The position numbers and the translations under genes were made by a program. This document shows, piece by piece, positions 5,155-64,000 of a stretch of 64,000 bases of DNA (its first letter is position 1; every line of letters starts with the position of its first letter). Origin of the DNA: Planoprotostelium fungivorum (Eukaryota; Evosea; Variosea; Cavosteliida; Cavosteliaceae). Under the pieces are notes generated by a model. That model saw only the letters and a program-made list of their open reading frames with translations. It did no database searches and was not told where the DNA came from. The stretch spans positions 43,655 through 107,654 of the forward strand of contig MDYQ01000362.1 of the NCBI GenBank assembly GCA_003024175.1, given 5' to 3'.

Positions 5155-6143
5155 TTCTCTCTTTGTCGACAGATGAGAGAGAAGAGAAGATGATAAAGTT
5201 CTGTAACACCTCTTTGCACCGTTACGCACGAGCATCAGTCGGAAGTATATTCACGTTACCTTAGTCGCATGTTTGAATGTACATGTGTGATTGTCATAGA
5301 GATTATATATGATGGGTCACGTGAGTACCTACGAGACGCGTACGTCAAGATATGGAGGTGTGTCTGCGCACAGCTGTCCACAACCATTCATCCTCACAGA
5401 TTGTCGCTGGATGTGCTCATAAAAGTGAGGCTGACTGTCGATTGCCCTATCAGGTGTGTGAACGATCGATCTGTGAGTGATCTTCACTCGTGGATCATAT
5501 ACCGGATGCTTCTCGGACACCAAGCGGATATCAATGTGGGTGATCAAACGTACACGGCAGATGACAATTTGGACGTTGTCCGCCTGCGAGATTCGGGCAA
5601 CAATCTATATCGAAATACCTCGGTACTTCTCTCTAGAATGATCATAGGTACCAGTCCTGCTCACATACAGCACGACCATACCTACGACGTAAGTATGACC
5701 CTTCACGATGAAGAGTCGTTTGAAGAGATCTTAATCATGGATACTACTACCCAAAGATCTGTTCGATCTGCAACCCCTTTCTTCCGGAGCTGAACTGAAA
5801 CACAACTCAACCAAAGCGGAACGTTTGCAATTTCACTCATGAGCCGATCTCTCACTCATCGGCTCACACTTTGTCGATATGGAAGACGGATCTTTAGCTC
5901 AAAATGCCAAATTTTCAGGTTGCAGACGATGCAAGCTCTGTCGCAGCGCTGCGAAGGTTTCCCGCCATATCAATTTGATGCCGTCACCGAAGGCAACGAC
6001 AGATGTGTCTCTGGAGTGTGCAATTTTGTCTACGAAGACTTTGACACTGACGTCCAATTTTCGCGAAACGTCAAGAACATTTCTTTGTCCAGACAGAAAG
6101 AACAAATAAGGAAAGCAGAAAGAAAAAAAGCGCACAAGAGAAG
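5155..6143. other. Spacer upstream of the secreted-protein gene, source of a duplicated segment
   Basis: No gene is recognised here. A long open frame runs at 5269-5793 (+), and part of it is also open on the minus strand (5329-5547). The piece from about 5390 to 5645 recurs in reverse orientation at about 9830-10085. The two copies differ by non-conservative changes in every frame (D/G, V/D, R/H, TSV/IPA), so coding constraint is not evident. The stretch 5875-6140 holds no convincing exon; its 3' part is probably the 5' leader of the gene starting at 6144. Confidence 0.5.
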
Positions 6144-7897
6144 ATGCGAGCCATCCTCCTTCTTCTGCTCGCTTTGTCCTGCCTGGCCAGCGCCAAGTCT
6201 TTGAACGTCACCCTTCAGGACTATACTGTCACAGACGACAACAGTCTTCTGTGTGGAACTGATCTCAGCAACACCTTGGTCGTCTTCTCAGCTACAAATG
6301 ACCTTGTCGTTCAGAACCTCACGACTGGCGCCTCTTCGTCCAGCATCTCGGGAGACGGGCAGTGGATTGTAGTCATTCAAAATGAGACCATGACCATCTA
6401 CATCCGCAAAGCACAAAGCTGGAGCATCTTCGTAAGTTTTCCTCTTCCACTTTTTCCAACTATACTTTAGACTTCTGTACCTATACCCTTCAATCAGACG
6501 TCCCTCTCCTCTCTGTTCTTTGACACGACCGGCTCTCGTCTGATCTTGGTCACTGACGACGAGACGTATTTCTATTCCAAGTCTTCTACATCGAAAGACT
6601 ACACCTCCTGGTCACAGTTGGTCCAGTCAGATAGTAGACAGGTCTCTTTCAGTAAAGACCTCAGCACTGCATTCGAGAAGATTAACTCTTCTCTCCTTGT
6701 GTCCACCGTCGACTGGACCAACAAGAAGATGAACGAGTCGGTGGGCATCTCACTATGGAAATGTCTCATCTTCCTCAGACAAAAATTGCCGATTTAGACC
6801 AGGGAGGATATTTCGTGGCCGTCAATTCAGCTGGAACCGCCTTCGTCTATGGAGATTCTAACAATCGCCTCTATAGAAAGAGGTCAGATGAGATACATAC
6901 CCACTCAATCCTCATTGTCTTGCAGTTCAGGTGGTTGGATCGCACAGGACGTGGGAGACTTTTATGACATTTGTGGTTTCTCTGGTGATGATCAGTTCCT
7001 CTTCCGTATTACAAATCGAGGAGAACTATCCAGGTATCTCGTTGGTGACGTGACGAGAGCTCAATTACCCCGGCAAGTGTGAGTGACCATCACCTTCCCC
7101 TCTCTCAACAATTCAGTTTATCATCGAACGGTGAAGACCAAGGCTGGTACGTACATCCCAACTATGATGGAAGTCAAGTCATCTACGACACTCAAGTGAT
7201 CAATCAATCCAACGCAATCAGCCCCATCCAGCTCACCATCCCATCCACGCTCCACCAGGCCGGACAGATCTGCCAGAACGACACTTGGTGTCAGTCTGAT
7301 CTCAGGTGTGGCCCCGGTCACTACTGCCACCAACCGAACCGCACGGCTCAGCCAGACTCTTACACGGCGTATTTCAAGGACTTATGGCATCCAAGCGGCG
7401 ACGGTGAGGTCCTCCTCACCTTCATGTGGTAACGAAGATCAGTGGTGCTCCAATTCAAATTTCCAGCTCTAGTGACCTGCAACGTTGCAGGCTCGACTCC
7501 TGTTGGAGTTGAAGCGGCAGCTCACAACGCGTACAACAACACAAAGTTGCAAGTGGTGTATCACAACTCGACCGGCCTCTCACGAATGGTGGATGCAGGG
7601 TACCTCAAAGTGGGCCTGAACTCTCTTCGCGTGGAGCCGCTGGAAATGGAGAACAGGACGGTCGAGTTCTGGCTGAGTTGCGTGTGCGTCGATGACTACG
7701 CGTCATCTGCACCCACCATCTTTAGTCTCGAAATACCTGTGGCCACGAGCAGCACCCAAAGCGGCACCCAAAGCAGCACCCAAAGTAGCACCCAAAGCGA
7801 TATCTATACCGCACAGCCGACCCATTTGGACAGTCCAGCCGCTGTCATCGGCATCACAACAACACTGGTCGCCTGTCTGTCGATGATGATGATGTGA
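6144..7897 (+). CDS. Secreted or GPI-anchored surface glycoprotein, function unknown
   Basis: The protein starts MRAILLLLLALSCLASAKS, a clean signal peptide. It has many N-glycosylation sequons, a cysteine-containing segment (CQNDTWCQSDLRCGPGHYC, near 7270-7330) and a C-terminal hydrophobic tail (AAVIGITTTLVACLSMMMM) ending at TGA 7895-7897. A serine/threonine tail before it contains a short tandem repeat of (S/G)TQS units. A signal peptide plus a hydrophobic terminus with no cytoplasmic tail suggests a GPI anchor. Introns begin at about 6433 (GTAAGT), 6730, 6881 and 7076. The middle has blade-like repeats (SGDDQFLFRITNRGELSRYL) that could belong to a beta-propeller, but I see no known domain. 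Fragments of this gene recur at 9.5-10.1 kb. Confidence 0.7.
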
Positions 7898-8685: not shown

Positions 8686-9415
8686 GCTGTTGCTGTGACG
8701 CTTGCTCACATCCCGCTGTTGGACATCTTGCAGATCTCTCTCCCTATATCCTCGAACAAACTGTAGTGGCTGAGAAACTCTACAGAACGATGGAACTGTC
8801 ATTCTCTATAAACCTAGGGGGAATACACAGGCACTCGAGGATAAATCTCTGTCTTCAAGTTCCGCACAGCAACTCGTGCAGACACGACGTGGATCCTAAT
8901 CGACACGCACTCGCGCCCAGATGCAGGAGATCACGCCGTCGAGAATACATCCGTTGTAGACGTCGTCCGTCCAGCACAGGCGCCAAACATGGCACCTTCT
9001 GCCGTCGCTCAGCCTCCTATCATCCTCACCGAGTAGGCTCACACATGATGCCTCTTCTGAATGCTTCCAGGAAGGATCTCCTGCTGCAGAGGCAGGTGGG
9101 CAATATACTTGCCTTGTCACGTGGCACAGTGCGTTCAGAGGACTTGTCTGATGTCGATCGTCAAGAGATAGAGAATAGGAGCTCTTATCGAAGCAGCCGC
9201 GTCGTGAGCCATTCCATTTTTGCCTCTTCTGCAGTCTAACTCGACTCAGTTCTCAGGCGTAAGGCGAAACAAGGACACGACCACAAGTCTTTCAATAAAT
9301 CACATTCACGCATCTTCTCTGTTTTATACAAAGACTTCTCATACACTTCAGTTCCTCATACTCGTTTATCATGCCCCATGCATAGTTCCTGACATTCACA
9401 TCTCGTGATGAACAT
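8686..9415 (+). repeat. Dispersed repeat copy 1 (family A, divergent subfamily)
   Basis: The 3' half is a copy of the two-exon family A. An exon encoding SVVDVVRPAQAPNMAPSAVA runs to a GA|GTAGGC donor near 9032. A short intron of about 38 nt ends in TTCCAG, and the second exon encodes KDLLLQRQVGNILALSRG and DLSDVDRQEI. AATAAA lies near 9296. It is closest to the minus-strand copy at 63.35-63.8 kb, sharing the 3' flank with the GCGAAACAAGGACACGACCA stretch. The 5' part (8694-8800) matches, in the opposite relative orientation, the promoter-side segment at 28.73-28.87 kb and 55.08-55.2 kb. The coding frame fades after IENRSS, so this copy may be decayed. Confidence 0.65.
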
Positions 9416-9539: not shown

Positions 9540-10096
9540 CCTGGTCATGTCACGTCACCAACAAGATACCTGGATAGTTCTCCTCGATTTGTAATACGGA
9601 AGAGGAACTGATCATCACCAGAGAAACCACAAATGTCATAAAAGTCTCCCACCCGCTGTCAAGGTGCGTGAAATTGTCTCGTTGTAGTTCGACGTATCCG
9701 CTCTGATGTCACGTGCTCACGTAACGACAGCCCCTGCACAAGAGAAGATGCGAGCCATCCTCCTCTCTCTGCTCGCTTTGTCATGCCTGGCCAGCGAAAA
9801 TTGGACGTCAGTGTTGTAAGTGTCCTTCATGAGAGAAGTGCCGGGATGTTTCGATAGAGGTTGTTGCTCGAATCTCGCAGGTGGACGTCGTCCAAATTGT
9901 CATCTGCGGTGTACGTTTGATCACCCACATTGATACCCGCTTGGTGTCCGAGAAGCATCCGGTATATGATCCACGAGTGAAGATCACTCACAGATCGATC
10001 GTTCACACACCTGATAGGGCAATCGACAGTCAGCCTCACTTTTATGAGCACATCCAGCGACAATCTGTGAGGATAAATGGTTCCTGGAAAAAATGA
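9540..10096. pseudogene. Scrambled partial duplicate of the 5.4-7.1 kb secreted-protein locus
   Basis: Three source pieces are joined in altered order and orientation. About 9545-9650 is the reverse complement of about 6955-7060 (the exon with DFYDICGFSGDDQFLFRIT). About 9735-9800 is a direct copy of 6130-6195 (signal peptide MRAILLSLLALSCLAS). About 9799-9820 is the reverse complement of 6045-6068, and about 9830-10090 the reverse complement of about 5390-5645. No single reading frame joins them; the signal-peptide frame is cut by a GTAAGT site at about 9817. I call it a rearranged pseudogene, although a spliced transcript from the copied start is not excluded. Confidence 0.75.
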
Positions 10097-21984: not shown

Positions 21985-22590
21985 CTACATTAGAGCTGCA
22001 AGTGCCCACCTCTGTGGCCTCTTCTCTTCCATTCAGTGCAGCAAACCCTCTGCCACCCATACCACATGCAACGCTTCCACTGTCTGACCCTGTCATAGCC
22101 GTCCAAGACTCTTCTGTGGGGTCTGCCATCGAGCATTCCTCCGTTGTAGACGCTGCCCTTCCATCTCAGCAGCCAGAAATGGCTCCTTTGACATTCGCTC
22201 AGTCTCCTGCTACCTCCAACGAGTGAGCACAGATATAGCTCCTCTCTTTAACGTGTATAGGAGGGACCTTCTGCTTGCGAGGCAAGCGGACAATTTGGTT
22301 GCCGTCGTTTTTGGGCAAGTACGTTACCAGGACTTGCCTGAAGAAGACCGCCGAGACATTGTGAGAATAGCAACTCTGGGACAAGCAGCCCCGTCGTAAG
22401 CCATTTCTTTTTACCTCTTCTGCTGTCTGACTCCACTCAGTTCTCAGGCGTGAGTCAGCAAAGTAAAATAAGGAGACGACCAGTCTTACAATAAATGACA
22501 TTCATTCATCTGATCTGTTCTTCTTGGCTGAGCCATTTGTCATCGTGCATAGTCTTCGAAATTCGCCTCTCGTGGTGATTGATGTTGTTC
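21985..22590 (+). repeat. Dispersed repeat copy 2 (family A), intact 3' gene portion
   Basis: The copy is 5'-truncated near the GAGCTGCAAGTGCCCACCTC stretch. Exon 1 encodes VPTSVASSLPFSAANPLPPI, PHATLPLSDPVIAVQDS, SVVDAALPSQQPEMAPLTFA and SPATSNE. It splices at GA|GTGAGC (about 22222) over an intron of about 37 nt to exon 2: RDLLLARQADNLVAVVFGQV, RYQDLPEEDRRDIVRIA, ending GQAAPS TAA (about 22398). The shared 3' flank has the CTCCACTCAGTTCTCAGGCG motif and AATAAA near 22492. The frame is unbroken across the retained part. Confidence 0.75.
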
Positions 22591-23085
22591 TGCTGCGGGA
22601 GATTACGTCGAGCATTACTCCGTTGTAGACGCTGCCCTTGCACCTCAGAAGCCAGAAATGGCTCCTTTGACATTCGCTCAGTCTCCTGCTTTCCCCAACG
22701 AGTGAGCTTAGATATGATCTCTCTCTTTAATGTGCATAGGAGGGACCTTCTGCTTGCGAGGCAAGTGGACAATTTGCTTGCCGTCACTCTTGGGATTGTA
22801 CGTTACCAGGACTTGCCTGAAGAAGACCGCCGAGACATTGTGAGAGCAGCAGCTCTGGGACAAGTACCCTCGTCGTAAGCCATTTCTTTTTGCCTCTTCT
22901 GCTGTCTGATTCCACTCAGTTCTCAGGCGTGAGCTGCGTAAAGCCTTCACTTCCTTGAAGCAGACTACCAGTGTTACAATAAATCACATTTATCCATCTG
23001 CTCTGTTCTTCGTGGCTCAGCCAATTGCTGTCGTGCATAGTTTCGAAATTCGTCTCTCATGATGTTCTGACGCGGGAGATTGCGT
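22591..23085 (+). repeat. Dispersed repeat copy 3 (family A), in tandem with copy 2
   Basis: A second, shorter unit follows head-to-tail. It begins within exon 1 (SVVDAALAPQKPEMAPLTFA, SPAFPNE) and has the same donor GA|GTGAGC. Exon 2 encodes RDLLLARQVDNLLAVTLGIV, RYQDLPEEDRRDIVRAAA and ends QVPSS TAA. AATAAA is near 22979. The junction between units lies at the CTGCGGGAGATTACGTCG stretch near 22594-22611. A similar junction follows the 60.7 kb copy (61.38-61.5 kb), so tandem partial units recur. Confidence 0.72.
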
Positions 23086-23198
23086 CGTGAGAAGAAACTT
23101 GGTCGATGCGATTTCGTTCTTTCCTCTGGTGAAGTTGAGACAGCGAAAGTAAAGTACTTGTTCAGATGGCTGCATTTATTGTGATGACCATTCCAGAG

Positions 23199-28499: not shown

Positions 28500-28870
28500 T
28501 GCACACGTGCAAGAACGAGACTCAAATGATCAGTGGAAACCCTCTACCAGGAAGATGAGTGGAGCAGCGCTCTGACCAGGCCTCAAAGTGGGTTGTTCGA
28601 AGCGTTGTTGTACTCCCTGGATGGGTAATATGAACCGTGTCATACCCATCCAATGTTTTAATGGTCCGCGATGGAAAATTGTCATGCAGTTGGAAGAAGA
28701 AATAGACGGTTCCGTCGTTCTGTGGAGTTTCTGAGTCATTGCAGTTAGTTCGAGGATATATTAATAGGGAGAGAGGCCTATAGAGATAGAGGGCGTGAAG
28801 CAGCTGGGCAGATGTCCGATGGCGGGATGAGAGCAAGTGTCACAGCTACAGTAGAATGACTGATGACACG
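28500..28870 (-). repeat. Repeat-associated segment facing family A copy 4
   Basis: On the minus strand this holds a promoter-side block (CTGTGACACTTGCTCTCATC, 28830-28850) shared with 8694-8715 (+) and 55104-55130 (+). It is followed by an open frame starting MTQKLHRTTEPSISSSNCMT (from 28739), which aligns with MAEKLYRTMELSFS at 8766. The frame runs to the left end of the segment without a recognised domain. It is divergently placed relative to the family A copy starting at 28856. Confidence 0.5.
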
Positions 28871-29765
28871 CACTACTTATCTCTCGGCACAGCACCTTTT
28901 GCAGCGCAATGGAATGAGCGTGGCTTCTCTTTTGTATACAATGAGAGCATCCTCCATCAGATCTGTAAGTCTAACATCAACAGACTCCACAAAATTATAA
29001 ATGAGGCCAGAGTGCTATGGAAACAGATGTCAGCCACGTCATCGAGCGCGCAAGAGGTTGAGCTCTGCAGTAACACATCCCTACATCACAACACAACAGC
29101 AACAGCAACACCCCTGTTATGCCTGGAAAGAAAGGGAACGAGAAGCTGCCTCCCCATTGATGGCCAATCGTAGGCTTCTACAGTCAACGCACAGCTGCAG
29201 TGCCCACCTCTGTGACCTCTTCTCTTCCATTTAGTGCAGCAACCCCTCTGCCACCCATACCACATGCGACGCTTCCACTGTCTGACCCTGTCATAGCCGT
29301 CCAAGATTCTGCTGTATCTTCTGCCATCGAGCATTCCTCCGTTGTATACGCTGCCCTTCCATCTCAGCAGCCAGAAATGGCTCCTTTGACATTCGCTCAG
29401 TCGCCTGCCACCTCCAACGAGTGAGCACAGATATAACCTCTCTCTTTAACGTGTATAGGAGGGACCTTCTGATTTTGAGGCATGCGAACAATTTGATTGC
29501 CGTCGCTCTTGGGATTGTACGTTACCAGGACTTACCTGAAGAAGACCGCCGAGACATTGTGAGAGCAGCAGCTCTGGGACTAACAGCCCCGCCGTAAGCC
29601 ATTCTCTTTTTACCTCTTCTACTGTCTGACTCCACTCAGTTCTAGGCACTTCCACGAAGGAGACGACCAGTCTTACAATAAATGACATTCATTCATCTGC
29701 TCTGTTCTTCGTGGCTGAGCCATTTGTCATCGTGCATAGTTTTCGAAGTTCGCCTCTCGTTTCCA
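28856..29765 (+). repeat. Dispersed repeat copy 4 (family A), longest 5' end, frameshifted
   Basis: This copy shows what may be the true 5' end: MTDDTHYLSLGTAPFAAQWN from 28856, then ERGFSFVYNESILHQI and a GTAAGT...ACAG candidate intron at about 28965-28982. The body includes MPGKKGNEKLPP (from 29118). Compared with the 60.7 kb copy one extra base near 29152-29158 breaks the MPGKK frame. Downstream exons are open: TSVTSSLPFSAATPLPPIPH, QPEMAPLTFAQSPATSNE|RDLLILRHANNLIAVALG and RYQDLPEEDRRDIVRAAA, ending GLTAPP. AATAAA is near 29679. It is likely a decayed gene copy. Confidence 0.65.
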
Positions 29766-30022
29766 GCCTGATGATGTTTTACCTTCATCCTCAACCTGTT
29801 GATGTTCTATGCAACATCGTGAAGAGTGCTCGAGGGCAGACAAAGAGGAGATGAGAGAGAACACGGGAGGGAGACATGCTGAGATGAGGAAGGCACATTT
29901 ATTTACGTGGAAGGTCTCCTCTTCGTGGAATGCTCACAGATGACATAACATATTCCCAGAAGAGAAGGAGAAGATAGAACCACTCGAGGAGAAGGAATGG
30001 GCTAGACTGCACGTTTATTGTT

Positions 30023-51300: not shown

Positions 51301-52948
51301 AAAGCCTGCGGATGTTTCGAAGAGACGATGGCTCTCATATACATCGCCGAAGTTGTTGTTGCTTTAGAATACCTACATAGTAATGTGAGTTTGCACCACC
51401 CCCTCCGTACGTAACTCTCTTCACAGAAGATTATCCATAGAGATATCAAGCCGGACAATCTGGTGAGTGGATTCACACGTTCTCTCTTCTTTCTCACGAG
51501 TGAAACAGTTGCTTGGTCACGATGGCCACATCAAATTATCTGTGAGTCGATCGATTGAGTTGAAAGCTGATGACGCATCAGGATTTCGGCCTATCGAAAT
51601 ATAATTTATATGATAGTTACATGTCTGATGAAATATACGATCCCCTGGTGAGTCATCATCATGTCTTCTCATCATCATCATGTCTTCTCATCATCATCAT
51701 GTCTTCTCATCATCATCACTTCTCAACCATCGTTCTTTTTTCATTTATGACGAAGAATATGAAGCAGATGTTGATTGTTCTTTGATGAGCTGAATGAAGA
51801 CAGACGATACACTTGGAACCCACCACGATATCACCCACTGATTCACCGAGGAAAGCGATCAACCCAGTCAACAAGCGCTACAGCTTCGTTGGCACACCAG
51901 GTCGGTGTCTCAATTCGATGAGACGATCTACAACTTGCCATCTACTCACACTCGACAGATTATCTCGCTCCGGAGGTTATTCTGGGAACACACCACGGTG
52001 GGCCATCCTCTATCGATTCATCACCATTCTCTCATCGATTTGATGCAATTATTCGACTCGTATTGATGTCTTCACAGACTATGCTGTAGATTGGTGGGCT
52101 CTCGGTGCCGTTTTCTACGAGGTGAGATCGACAAATCAACCCAGATTATAATAATCATCCCACACATCACATCATCACACATCACATCATCCCACACACA
52201 TCACATCATCATCCACGATGACATCACATCATCCACGACGACATCATATCATCCACGATGACATCACATTATCACACACATCACATCATCCACACACATC
52301 ACATTATCACACACATCACATCATCCACACACATCACATCATCCACACACATCACATCATCCACACACATCACATTACCACACACATCACATCATCATTC
52401 ACACACATCACATCATCATCCACGATGACATCACATCAACTCTCATCCAGTTTCTGATGGGCATTCCACCCTTCAACGATGAGACCCCCGCCCTCGTCTT
52501 CGAGAACATCCTCAACCGTACCATCCCTCCCATCGCAGAGGACATCTCAGCCCCCACCGTCGACATCATCAACCGTTTCCTCACCGTCAATCTAGACGAG
52601 AGGCTCGGCAGCAGGGGCGCCATCGAAGTGAAATCTCACGCTTGCTTCAACGGCATCGATTGGGACACGCTGTATCATCAAGAACCACCCTGGAAACCGG
52701 AGCTGCACGAGAGCTACTTTGATGACGAGAGGGCTGGGTTCGAAATCAATCAAGAGGCACCGTCACCGTTGGATGCAGAAGAGGACACGAACACGGACTT
52801 TCTGAATTTTTCGTTCAAGGTGAGGGAGTGGACGATTGGAAGGAACTGAAGGGAGAAGCATCTGCCTAATCTGGAGAGTCTGACGATGCAAGAGCATCGG
52901 ATGATCAAGAAGGGGACGTCTACGGAGAGGGTAAACACGCCGCTGTAG
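48354..52948 (+). CDS. IRE/Rim15-type AGC protein kinase with zinc-finger region
   Basis: The N-terminal region (MSKEDGGGGIVPHLSESPPI, with many SP/TP sites) and a helical block (DAELENFMELIRKQRDTFKD) precede a C2HC zinc finger, VCRICEELVPMTQLEEHSKQ with C. The kinase domain begins FEIIRPISRGAFGKVFLAM, with AIKVLNKDDLRKK (VAIK lysine), MVMEYLSGGDLYSLL, IIHRDIKPDNLLLGHDGHIK, SDFGLSKYNL, a long activation-loop insert, SFVGTPDYLAPEVILGTHHD and YAVDWWALGAVFYEFLMGIP. It continues with the AGC C-terminal tail (RLGSRGAIEVKSHACFNGID) and ends RVNTPL TAG at 52946-52948. Finger plus split activation loop resembles plant IRE and yeast Rim15, nutrient or polarity kinases; MAST is the animal relative. An extra upstream start exon is possible. 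Confidence 0.85.
50320..50450. repeat. ATCATCACC microsatellite in a kinase-gene intron
   Basis: Trinucleotide-like runs (ATC/AAC/ACC) fill the intron between the zinc-finger region and the linker exon. It remains open in one frame, so read naively it would add a His/Ile/Asn-rich insert. Confidence 0.8.
51640..51740. repeat. CATCATCATGTCTTCTCAT repeat in a kinase-gene intron
   Basis: Three to four copies of a 20-bp unit lie in the intron following SDEIYDPL, inside the activation-loop coding region. They extend the intron well beyond the usual 40-60 nt. Confidence 0.8.
52140..52440. repeat. Large ACATCACATCATCCAC tandem array in a kinase-gene intron
   Basis: Close to 300 bp of (ACACATCACATCATCC)-like repeats fill the intron between GAVFYE and FLMGIPPFN. 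The array is a purine-poor strand bias tract and among the longest introns in the window. Confidence 0.85.
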
Positions 52949-53300: not shown

Positions 53301-53722
53301 TTGCAATCTCTTGCAGCAGAACATCATCGGAGGCGAATTTCGAAACTATGCACGATGACAAATGGCTCAGCCACGAAGAACAGAGCAGATGAATGAATGT
53401 CATTTATTGTAACACTGGTCGTCTCCTTCGTGGAAGTGAAGGCTTTACGCAGCTCACGCCTGAGAACTGAGTGGAGTCAGACAGCAGAAGAGGCAAAAAG
53501 AAAATAGCTTACGACAGGGCTGCTAGCCCCAGAGCTGCCATTCTCGGCGGTCTTCTTCAGGTAAGTCCTGGTAACGTACTCTCCCAAGAGCTACGGCAAC
53601 TAAATTGCCCACTTGCCTCGAAGTGAGGATGTCATACCTATACACGTTAATGAGGGAGGTCATATCTGTGCTCCTCGTTGGGGAAAGCAGGCGACTGAGC
53701 GAATGTCAAAGGAGCCAATTTG
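53301..53722 (-). repeat. Dispersed repeat copy 5 (family A), 5'-truncated
   Basis: On the minus strand the copy begins inside the first conserved exon (about 53722), encodes LTFAQSPAFPNE, splices over an intron of about 38 nt and continues YDILTSRQVGNLVAVALG and RYQDLPEEDRRE. It then diverges (NGSSGASSPVVS). The shared 3' flank with AATAAA (as TTTATT near 53403) and the GAATGAATGTCATTTATTG stretch follows. Its 5' edge abuts the pseudogene-like unit at 53.73-54.11 kb. Confidence 0.68.
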
Positions 53723-54115
53723 CTGATGTCTCTGAGTATCATCTTGCATGATGGTCTCCATAGAGGTTCTAGAAGCAGGGATCCGATAGCGGCGTGGGCA
53801 CTACCTTACACTGACTGAACAAGTTGCTATGAAGAGCCATCCACCCTAAAGGCTCTTGGCTGGGTCTTGATCTGTCACGATGGTCGGTGTCGGAGTTTGC
53901 GAACGGGCTCACCTCTTTATGCCCATGTTGATAGGATGAATATGAATATCCACCCTTTGGTCTTTCAAGACACCCAATGGGTGGAGGCCACTCAGTGCAA
54001 GGTGTCACTTCTGAGAGCGCAAAGACAACACCGACTCCGTTTTGTGAGAACGCATTTCATGGAGCCGCGTTCAGCTCAGCCTTCGTTGAGAGGCTAGACC
54101 AGAGACGATCTCCAC
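53723..54115 (-). pseudogene. Truncated tandem copy of the unknown gene at 54.26-55.1 kb
   Basis: On the minus strand this repeats one exon-intron-exon stretch of its neighbour: IHIHPINMGIKR before a GTGAG donor, then SQEPLGWMALHSNLFSQC and a sequence parallel to SVLTPISDPTF. Here a base change or indel gives TTC TAG where the neighbour reads TTC TCG, so the frame closes. The unit is cut at about 53722 by repeat copy 5. It is a decayed, truncated duplicate. Confidence 0.55.
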
Positions 54116-54258
54116 TGTCTTTCGTTTGTTAATTCATGTGTATCCAAGCGCGGAGGCAAAAGACTTCAATATACCTGGCCCTTTCTCACGCCGACCTGTC
54201 AGAGTTGAGTACCTGATGAGATACATAGGGGCTTGAGATCGTCCACAACTTGCATTTC

Positions 54259-55115
54259 TCATCGAATTTCACCCTCTAAATCACGTAAGGGCTCTTGCAG
54301 AATTTTATGTTTGACCTTTTTGTTGACAGTACCCTTAGAGGTCTTCATCGCAACTGACGCTGGCTCATCGTGCGAACTCCCAGCAGAGCAAATCGATAAC
54401 GCAGCGATTTCACGATCATGATGATTCCATCAATTTTATGTACAGTAGATTGCGAATTGCCTCTTGTTGCGATTCAAATCATTCCTGTACCCGAATAAAC
54501 TCGGTGGCTCTACTGTCGGCCCGCATCACCTCTAAAATGGTCCAAAGAGATTCAATCTCCTTCGTCCTCTTACTCCCCAGCTCGATCGGTAGAGTGGTAT
54601 CTTGCATGATGACCTCCAGTGAGGTCCTCGAGAAGGTGGGGTCTGATATAGGAGTAAGAACGGATCTGCACTGACTGAACAGCTTGCTGTGAAGAGCCAT
54701 CCATCCTATTGGCTCTTGGCTGGGTAGCGCTCTGGTGGGTTTAGTCAGCGAAGGCGAAGTTGTGCACCTCACCTCTTTATGCCCATGGGGAGCGGATGAA
54801 AATGAGGCCATACAGGGCATCTAGCCAATGGAAGTCACGGTGGAACGTCAAAATGTCTTGGATTGATACGCGCCGTTTCTCAAGAATGCATTTTATGGGT
54901 TCCTGGTAAATTATGTTAGGCTCTAAGCATCCGAACATCATCAGCTCGTTCGGTTTGCATTTCTGGCTGCTGAGGTGGAGCACTCCGGCCTCATTTGTCT
55001 AGTCTGTTGGTGTTAGACTTACAGATCTGACGGAGAAGCATCGCATCACATACAAAACAGAGAGGCAATGCTGCGGCACGAGGATGTCATCAGTCATTCT
55101 ACTGTAGCTGTGACA
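54259..55115 (-). CDS. Unknown gene sharing its 5' end with repeat family A
   Basis: On the minus strand MTDDILVPQHCLSVLYVMRC (from about 55101) parallels the start of copy 4 (MTDD...), including the GTAAGTCTAAC donor and the ACAG acceptor that follow. Downstream, exons give CKPNELMMFGCLEPNIIYQE, KCILEKRRVSIQDILTFHRD, HFHPLPMGIKR, SQEPIGWMALHSKLFSQC, SRTSLEVIMQDTTLPIELGS and ESLWTILEVMRADSRATEFI, then DREIAALSICSAGSSHDEPA and VNKKVKHKILQEPLRDLEGE, TGA at about 54259-54261. Exon joins are partly guessed and the first exon may be broken (early TAG after splicing). No domain is recognised. It may be a pseudogene or a mosaic family member. Confidence 0.4.
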
Positions 55116-55432
55116 CTTGCTCTCATCCCGCCGTCAACCCAGCTGCTTGTCACGACCTCTGTCTCTGTATATCGATGAATTCCAATCGGTCTCGGCGGAC
55201 CTCTTGGCTATGTCCGATGTTTGTGAAATCTCTATTGAGGTGAAACGTGCACGTCTCAGAATCAGAATACGGCGCGGCTGTGAATATTACCTAATATTCA
55301 CAGCAAAGTCACAGCAAAGTCACCTCCAACTGATGACGAATTTGCACTCGAGATCTTGGGCCACCTTCTATTCGTTCAACACTTGAATAAATATTTACAT
55401 ATTACAGTCAAACTGTAGACGGCGAAGTCGGT
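55116..55432. other. Spacer with shared promoter-side block and a small palindrome
   Basis: The stretch 55104-55200 matches the promoter-side block of 28.7-28.87 kb (reverse strand) and 8.69-8.8 kb. A 22-bp near-perfect inverted repeat (GTGAATATTA CC TAATATTCAC) occupies 55280-55301, followed by a direct repeat of CAGCAAAGTCA. AATAAA lies near 55386. Confidence 0.45.
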
Positions 55433-60614: not shown

Positions 60615-60649
60615 AGTGTCTTCAAAGCTAAACCATTGAGATACATGGC

Positions 60650-61505
60650 AAGAGGTTGAGCTCTGCACAAACAGATCCATACATCACAACACAACAGCAA
60701 CAGTAGCACGCCTGTTATGCCTGGAAAGAAAAGGAACGAGAAGCTGCCCCCCATCGATGGCCAATCGCAGGCTTCTGCAGTCAACGCACAGCTGCAAGTG
60801 CCCACCTCTGCCTCTTCTCTTCCATTCAGTGCAGCAGACCCTCTGCCACCCATACCACACGCAACGCTTCCACTGTCTGACCCTGTCATAGCCGTCCAAG
60901 ACTCTTCTGTATCTTCTGCTGTCGAGCATTCCTGTGTTGTAGACGCTGCCCTTCCATCTCAGCAGCCAGAAATGGCTCCTTTGACATTCGCTCAGTCGCC
61001 TGCCTTCCCCAACGAGTGAGCACAGACATGACGTCTCTCTTTAACGTGTATAGGTATGACATCCTCACTTCGAGGCAGGGGCGCAATTTGGTTGCCGTCG
61101 TTTTTGGGCAAGTACGTTACCAGGACTTGCCTGAAGAAGACCGCCGAGACATTGTGAGAATAGCAGCTCTGCAACAAATACCCTCGTCGTGAGCCATTCT
61201 CTTTTTGCCTCTTCTGCTGTCTGACTCCACTCAGTTCTCAGGCGTGAGCCAGCAAAGCAAACTTCTCCGGGAGACGACCAGTTTCACAATAAATGACATT
61301 CATTCATCTGCTCTGTTCTTCGTGGCTGAGCCATTTGTCATCGTGCATAGTTTTCGAAATTCGCCTCTCGTGGTGCTTGATGATGTTCTGCTGCGGGAAC
61401 TCCCGCTGTCCGCTGTCCTTCCACCTCAGCAGCTAGAAATGGCTCCTTTGACATTCGCTCAGTCTCCTGCTACCTCCAACGAGTGAGCACAGATATAGCC
61501 CTCTC
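60650..61505 (+). repeat. Dispersed repeat copy 6 (family A), best-preserved coding copy plus tandem fragment
   Basis: The frame from ATG 60717 reads MPGKKRNEKLPPIDGQSQAS, AVNAQLQVPTSASSLPFSAA, DPLPPIPHATLPLSDPVIAV, SCVVDAALPSQQPEMAPLTF and SPAFPNE. The donor GA|GTGAGC at about 61015 is followed by an intron of about 38 nt. Exon 2 encodes YDILTSRQGRNLVAVVFGQV, RYQDLPEEDRRDIVRIA and LQQIPSS TGA. AATAAA lies near 61290. A truncated second unit (61390-61505) repeats LEMAPLTFAQSPATSNE and stops in the intron. The copy begins about 35 bp past the reductase stop codon. Confidence 0.75.
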
Positions 61506-61647
61506 TTTAATGTGTTTCCTCTTAATTCCTCTACCACACTGCGGCGAAGAGAGTACTCCACCGGAAACCACTTGAAGTCATCATCGTGGCCGTACGATGA
61601 ACGTTCCGATAAAAAAAAGTGGACGCGATCTCGGATGATCTTTGTAG

Positions 61648-63023: not shown

Positions 63024-63350
63024 TACTAAAGAATGGAGGTCCTACATACGTATCTCTCTCGTTAGTGTCGAATGGTGTACAAGTGATTCCTCTTTGCTGC
63101 TGGATTCCGCAATTGCCAACGGTGTCTTCTTTTTGTGGTTATCGCCGTATGATTTTCATCATGTGATTGTCTGATGGTGACCGCGAAGAGATAGATAGAA
63201 CAGAATGTCTATCCATTCCTCTCACCTTGGCAGTGACGCGATATCGTGCATCAGAACAACAGTCTGGAGGTGAACCGTTGCATCTCATCGATTTTCAGGA
63301 ACCATGCGTGATGGCACGATAAATAAATTGGGAGAACACGATTCATAAGA
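63024..63350. other. Spacer without a recognised gene
   Basis: No open frame with coding character. It lies between the SET gene and the 3' end of repeat copy 7; AATAAATTG near 63321 could be a polyadenylation signal. Confidence 0.35.
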
Positions 63351-63810
63351 GGTATGAAGAGAGATTTATTGAAAGACTTGTGGTCGTGTCCTTGTTTCGC
63401 CTTACGCCTGAGAACTGTGTCGAGTTAGACTGCAGAAGAGAAAAATGGACGGCTCCAACGCGGCTGCTTCAATAAGAGCTTCTATTCTATCTATCTCTTG
63501 ACGGTCGACATCAGATAAGTCCTCGAAACGCACTATGCCACGACGCATGGCTAAGAAATTGCCCCTCTGCCTGATAGTCAGAAGATCCAACCTGTGCAAC
63601 ATTCAGAAGAGGCATCATGTGTGTGCTCACTCGGTGTGGATGACAGGAGGCTGAGCGACGGCAGAAGGAGCCATGTTTGGTGCCTGTGCTGCGTGGACGA
63701 CGTCTACAACGGGTGTGTTCTGGGTGGTCCTGGCTGTCACAGGAGGTAGAGGCGAGGCGTATAGTGGGGCTGTAGTGTTGAGCGATAGAGAAGATGCAGT
63801 CACTCACATG
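63351..63810 (-). repeat. Dispersed repeat copy 7 (family A, divergent subfamily)
   Basis: On the minus strand an exon encodes PVVDVVHAAQAPNMAPSAVA and QPPVIHTE. A GTGAGC intron of about 39 nt follows, and exon 2 reads RLDLLTIRQRGNFLAMRRG and VRFEDLSDVDRQEIDRIEAL with IEAAALEPSIFLFCS. Its 3' flank (TTTATTGAAAGACTTGTGG stretch, 63368-63390) matches the flank of copy 1. The protein motif matches the other subfamily at the same positions although the DNA has diverged, so the protein sequence seems to have been under constraint. Confidence 0.72.
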
Positions 63811-63841
63811 GTCTCGCCGGCGATGCTACCACAGGTGGCAG

Positions 63842-63931
63842 CACTGTTCCTGGGGTTTCACTGTGCCTCGGATGGGAGGAAATCGATCGGACATCTCCCA
63901 TCCGAGGCACAGTGAAGCCCCAGGAACAGTG
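63842..63931. repeat. 37-bp inverted repeat with 16-base loop
   Basis: Arms 63842-63878 and 63895-63931 are reverse complements with a single mismatch; the loop is 63879-63894. Weaker pairing extends outward (GCAGCA against TGCTGC). Upstream sequence belongs to the 5' flank of repeat copy 7. A long, nearly perfect hairpin of this kind could be a foldback element end, a small-RNA precursor or a terminal inverted repeat. Confidence 0.85.
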
Positions 63932-64000
63932 TTGCTGCTCTTGACTGTTGCCGCTTCGTTATGTTGCAAACAAGTGCAGAAGCATAGTTCGATCTCTTGC

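Follow-up and report, generated by a model that had tools for sequence, protein, structure and literature searches.

Self-comparison of the window, the whole 64-kb stretch of DNA analysed here, reveals seven copies of a sequence that we call family A, at 8.9, 22.0, 22.6, 29.0, 53.5, 60.7 and 63.5 kb (c1 to c7), of which c1, c2, c3, c4 and c6 lie on the forward strand and c5 and c7 on the reverse. The copies are collinear in their exon/intron layout, and a motif and a first intron are common to all seven and to a fragment of about 106 nt at 61.4 kb. The similarity among them is far above chance (blastn of copy against copy, down to E = 0.0) and exon 2 as a tblastn query recovers seven of seven; the earlier note's description of a multicopy, intron-containing family with at least seven copies and a common C-terminal motif thus stands. 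By identity the copies divide into two subfamilies, A1 (c2 to c6) and A2 (c1 and c7). The surrounding DNA is eukaryotic in style, with short introns, and a Pfam scan of ten open reading frames of the window finds ordinary enzyme or kinase domains in seven of them (AMP-binding, kinase, GNAT, patatin, GDSL-type and NAD-binding) and none in the other three.

The full unit, about 0.75 kb long, has a 5' leader, three exons and an AATAAA site. The full-length A1 copy c6 (60648..61398, forward strand) is given the extent that it has in common with c4 (blastn 29050-29778 against 60648-61387, 87%), the match with c3 reaching 61398. From this sequence the gene would consist of three short exons separated by two tiny phase-2 introns. 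In c6 the predicted exon 1 (60717..61015) has 100 codons including a split Glu codon, is Ser/Pro/Ala-rich and ends in GA; it is followed by intron 1 (61016..61053; 38 nt, phase 2, GTGAGC...TATAG), by exon 2, which carries the motif domain (61054..61188; 135 nt), by intron 2 (61189..61234; 46 nt, phase 2, GTGAGC...CTCAG) and by the coding end of exon 3 (61235..61247), which would yield an SSQA ending and a TGA stop. Measured in the six copies other than c5, the first intron is in phase 2 and 38 nt long (39 in c7), and exon 2 is 135 nt in five and 133 nt in c1. Of the conserved intron position and GTGAG donor that had been claimed, the donor holds for five of the seven copies and fails in c1, which has GTAGG and so keeps the GT present in six copies, and in c5, where the site was lost through a 1-nt deletion. 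The two-exon gene proposed at the same time has its intron 1 in all copies and was incomplete, because what looks like a stop codon behind exon 2 coincides in part with GTRAGC, the donor of another phase-2 intron.

This second intron has a donor and an acceptor in six of the seven copies, c7 being without a donor; the acceptor is CTCAG (CACAG in c7) and the length is 45 nt (c2, c3) or 46 nt (c1, c4, c5, c6), and 42 nt in the donorless c7. The difference between 45 and 46 nt would shift an unspliced frame; the predicted spliced end, SSQA-stop (TGA), is nonetheless kept in c2, c3 and c6, and c7 would end in FSQA-stop (TAA) should splicing take out the corresponding stretch despite the lost donor, so that an SQA-stop ending is written with TGA in A1 and with TAA in A2. 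By sequence comparison, therefore, donor and acceptor pairs are kept and the frame is restored on splicing, as expected of spliceosomal introns. Downstream of exon 3 an open frame, noticed by eye, crosses the AATAAA region; we considered it as a fourth exon and left it out of the model. We infer the transcription, splicing, translation and function of family A from the DNA.

When the copies are held against this strict model, an ATG and a full exon 1 frame occur in c6 only, which is the one complete copy of the seven, and truncation, frameshift or insertion affects five (c1 to c5). Directly after c6 lies the fragment mentioned above (c6b, 61411..61515, forward; self-comparison and blastn), made up of an exon 1 end and most of an intron 1. 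The tandem A1 copies c2 (21993..22607) and c3 (22608..23088), both forward and with an approximate border between them, are 5'-truncated, no exon 1 start having been found in either; in c2, exon 1 runs to 22222, intron 1 spans 22223-22260, exon 2 22261-22395 and intron 2 22396-22440, and in c3 intron 1 spans 22702-22739, exon 2 22740-22874 and intron 2 22875-22919. The full-length A1 copy c4 (29050..29778, forward; intron 1 29421-29458, exon 2 29459-29593, intron 2 29594-29639) has an ATG, but exon 1 contains a frameshift and a stop, and its 3' end is altered with loss of the SSQA ending. In the A1 copy c5 (53303..53720, reverse; intron 2 53512-53467), which has also lost the intron 1 donor and 10 nt of exon 2, exon 1 is split by an insertion of about 1.24 kb (53722..54957, reverse, edges approximate), beyond which exon 1 sequence picks up again at 54958-54978. 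The A2 copy c1 (8935..9323, forward; exon 2 9071-9203, intron 2 9204-9249) has the intron 1 donor GTAGGC and, relative to c7, an out-of-frame deletion of 2 nt in exon 2. The other A2 copy, c7 (63363..63721, reverse; exon 2 63591-63457), has exon 2 in frame, with the exon 1 start beyond the shared part. Under an alternative, shorter model that takes the ATG within the MAP motif as its start, an ATG found in six of the seven copies and in the fragment, c2 and c3 would count as intact too.

Several other repeats accompany the family. The insertion in c5 holds direct repeats at 53741-53945 and 54599-54805 (72%), and a second repeat block adjoins three of the seven copies, at 28705-29016 (c4), 54979-55169 (c5) and, inverted, 8687-8800 (c1). 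A near-perfect inverted repeat (63838-63935; RNA fold -82.3 kcal/mol, z -13.7), which may be a foldback element or a small-RNA precursor, lies upstream of the region that c7 shares with the other copies, and at 63167-63205 part of c7 exon 2 (63480-63518) recurs in inverted orientation (39 nt, 85%, E 1.6e-4). Elsewhere, 9549-10082 consists of scrambled, partly inverted duplicate pieces of the region 5382-7054, 93-99% identical, and short tandem repeat arrays lie between the exons of the kinase gene (51653-52433).

The predicted protein of c6 has 148 aa, and its Ser/Pro/Ala-rich N-terminus is probably disordered. Twelve residues of exon 2 (D2, L4, R7, N11, A14, G18, V20, R21, D24, L25, D29 and R30) are invariant over the residues retained in each of the seven copies, the rows of c1 and c5 being short; the motif is thus kept in the divergent subfamily, as had been noticed, at an A1-A2 DNA identity in exon 2 of 65%. 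AlphaFold2, given a 7-row alignment, models exon 2 as a two-helix hairpin (helices 3-16 and 27-40; best model with mean pLDDT 78.6 and pTM 0.50, the other four models at 68-72), which would most simply be a small protein-binding module. That no domain could be recognised in it agrees with our searches. A Foldseek search with the model gave 20 matches, the best with E 4.1 and none usable; the motif has no Pfam match above cut-off, the best E in PDB sequences is 0.27 with a single copy and 0.29 with a profile, PHROGs gives at best E 0.17, phage records contain no match to family A, and the whole window has no Rfam match at gathering thresholds. The exact pattern is absent from both the viral and the genome contigs; a looser scan produced 113 pattern matches in the former, none confirmed, and 69 in the latter, one confirmed. 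This last, on a Thermoplasmata MAG contig (L001), covers query residues 5-36 at 50% identity and falls within an archaeal frame of 516 aa that we take to resemble a HerA-type ATPase, and was rejected as chance; blastn of the window against that contig gives at best E 0.65. Sub-threshold Pfam matches to Staufen_C (PF16482; two of five queries, 13.2 and 15.1 bits, cut-off 27) and Sigma70_r4 (PF04545; one of five, 14.7 bits, cut-off 24.1), with E values of 0.02-0.1, were likewise treated as chance. The family A protein is therefore unmatched in the libraries searched, which included no eukaryotic genomes, and the parts of the literature on similar multicopy families available to us held nothing that we judged relevant.

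The sequences of introns 1 and 2 are retained in all seven copies, single splice sites being lost in c5 and c7, and this, with the tandem pairs c2/c3 and c6/c6b, argues against retrocopying; neither intron loss nor a 3' A-tail typical of a processed copy or SINE is found, and no A-tract is visible by eye past the shared 3' end. On c4 and c6, from which the unit borders were deduced and whose 60-nt ends and 30-nt flanks were searched, there are no terminal inverted repeats (P 0.76 for c4, 0.23 for c6) and no flanking direct repeat or target-site duplication (P 0.30 and 0.88) of the kind that marks a DNA transposon or MITE. In addition, c4 and c5 have common flanks outside the unit, at 28779-29016 and up to 29958. 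The kept introns, the tandem arrangement and occurrence in both orientations, the common flanks and the lack of terminal repeats together favour duplication at the DNA level as the mode of spread. A possible but doubtful alternative is that the unit is itself a non-autonomous mobile element, or cargo carried by one, multiplied by machinery encoded elsewhere, with the reading frame as passenger or relic. Such an element would account for the local density (seven copies and a fragment in 64 kb, in both orientations), for the start of c6, by eye, about 33 nt past the presumed stop of a reductase-like gene with an NAD-binding domain, and for noncoding parts that are conserved as well as the coding ones; it sits poorly with the bare ends of c4 and c6, as these were delimited, with the tandem and segmental context of the copies and with the ten scanned reading frames, among which is no transposase or reverse transcriptase.

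The functional protein under apparent constraint proposed in the earlier note does not emerge from the tests for selection. Between A1 and A2, NG86 dN/dS over 60 codons is 0.57-1.00 (mean 0.77, eight pairs), against a neutral median of 0.84 and with P = 0.38, the null having been built for one pair from the 176 of 1500 simulated runs that were without stops and the observed value being the mean of related pairs; the fraction of runs without stops, 0.12, is also the P value for the absence of stops, and is non-significant. Within A1, the block of exon 1 tail and exon 2 gives 0.81-9.25 (six pairs); the A2 pair (c1, c7), a single pair, has a point value of 0.68. YN00 gives 0.80 to 1.68 for the five of 15 pairs with values. 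Exon 1 of A1 yields lower figures, 0.32-0.61 (c2, c4 and c6; 73-74 codons; three pairs, point values), and the sole indel in the tested part is of 3 nt. Across the copies of the window dN/dS is accordingly not clearly below one, and the exon 2 block fails the very check, a ratio near one, that had been named as decisive against constraint, as far as these copies tell. When A1 and A2 are compared in six frames, the claimed frame is the sole stop-free one in exon 2, while in exon 1 two further frames are also stop-free. Codon scores in the claimed frame, trained on 12 open stretches presumed coding, lie above the median of random frames and below their 95th percentile.

Intron 2 is more alike between the subfamilies than the exons are, with a mean A1-A2 identity (c2, c3, c4 and c6 on the A1 side, c5 left out) of 81%, where exon 2 reaches 65% and the final 80 nt of exon 1 reach 70% (Fisher P for intron 2 versus exon 2 between 0.001 and 0.13 in the six pairs tested of eight), and c6 and c1 agree there at 41 of 46 positions (61189-61234 and 9204-9249); this is the opposite of what coding constraint predicts. 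Neither intron 2 with the bases after it, taken from c6 (z 0.30) and c1 (z -0.76), nor intron 1 of c6 (z 0.79) folds much differently from its shuffles, so a simple hairpin does not account for the extra conservation of intron 2. The helical periodicity of variable residues (claimed frame P 0.05 in A1 and 0.03 in A2) was dropped as evidence for coding because the wrong-frame control was stronger in A1 (P 0.008), and we did not rely on the coincidence of variable positions between the two subfamilies, for which P is 0.03 across 31 residues and 0.16 across the first 20.

From the dN/dS, six-frame and codon-score results, exon 1 may be under constraint; for exon 2 this is unproven. It is unlikely that family A is a noncoding or once-coding repeat in which every copy is a pseudogene and the motif reflects shared ancestry rather than selection: the neutral-like A1-A2 ratios, the damage to most copies and the unclear codon-usage signal fit such a repeat, but c6 retains its 100-codon exon 1 frame and both introns, and the low ratios and single 3-nt indel in exon 1 of c2, c4 and c6 do not fit it.

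The dN/dS ratios are, moreover, confounded by mosaicism among the A1 copies. The five A1 copies are mosaic by a PHI-like statistic (none of 5000 permutations as low; 36 informative sites, of which the 31 two-state ones were used), and their informative sites sort into blocks that back different groupings. Variation among four copies is concentrated at the start of exon 2, where 21 of the first 61 nt are variable; the remaining 74 nt have 12 variable columns, intron 2 has 4 in 46 and the tail of exon 1 has 9 in 80. The variable columns of the hot stretch show no codon-position bias, and intron 1 varies as well (10 of 38, P 0.51 versus the start of exon 2), which means that this stretch extends beyond the coding sequence. 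Recombination between diverged paralogues explains such blocks without selection, and it is highly improbable that they betray a protist variable-protein system, in which block-wise gene conversion among paralogues and pseudogene donors would shuffle variants of helix 1 (encoded by the initial 60 nt of exon 2) while the scaffold stays invariant, and so build up a varied set of small proteins for recognition or as adaptors.

On balance, we lean towards a lineage-specific multicopy gene family that spread by DNA-level duplication and gene conversion and is now largely pseudogenised. New copies would arise through duplication of the DNA and exchange sequence through gene conversion or recombination of another kind, and most would decay; with most copies broken and selection not demonstrated, this resembles ordinary gene-family birth and death. 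Lineage-specific multicopy families of small genes occur in protists, for example the hssA/2C/7E small-protein genes of Dictyostelium, and consist of numerous short paralogues, some in tandem and others dispersed, that recombine with one another and include pseudogenes. Family A may be likened to these in general kind, and its exon 2 motif has no Pfam match above cut-off; it is ordinary in kind, and a genuine multicopy family within the window. If the protein is real, it would contain an undescribed domain in a eukaryote, and its mosaic paralogues could reveal how such families diversify. The locus also offers a worked case of a conserved-looking motif that shared ancestry and recombination between copies explain equally as well as selection does.
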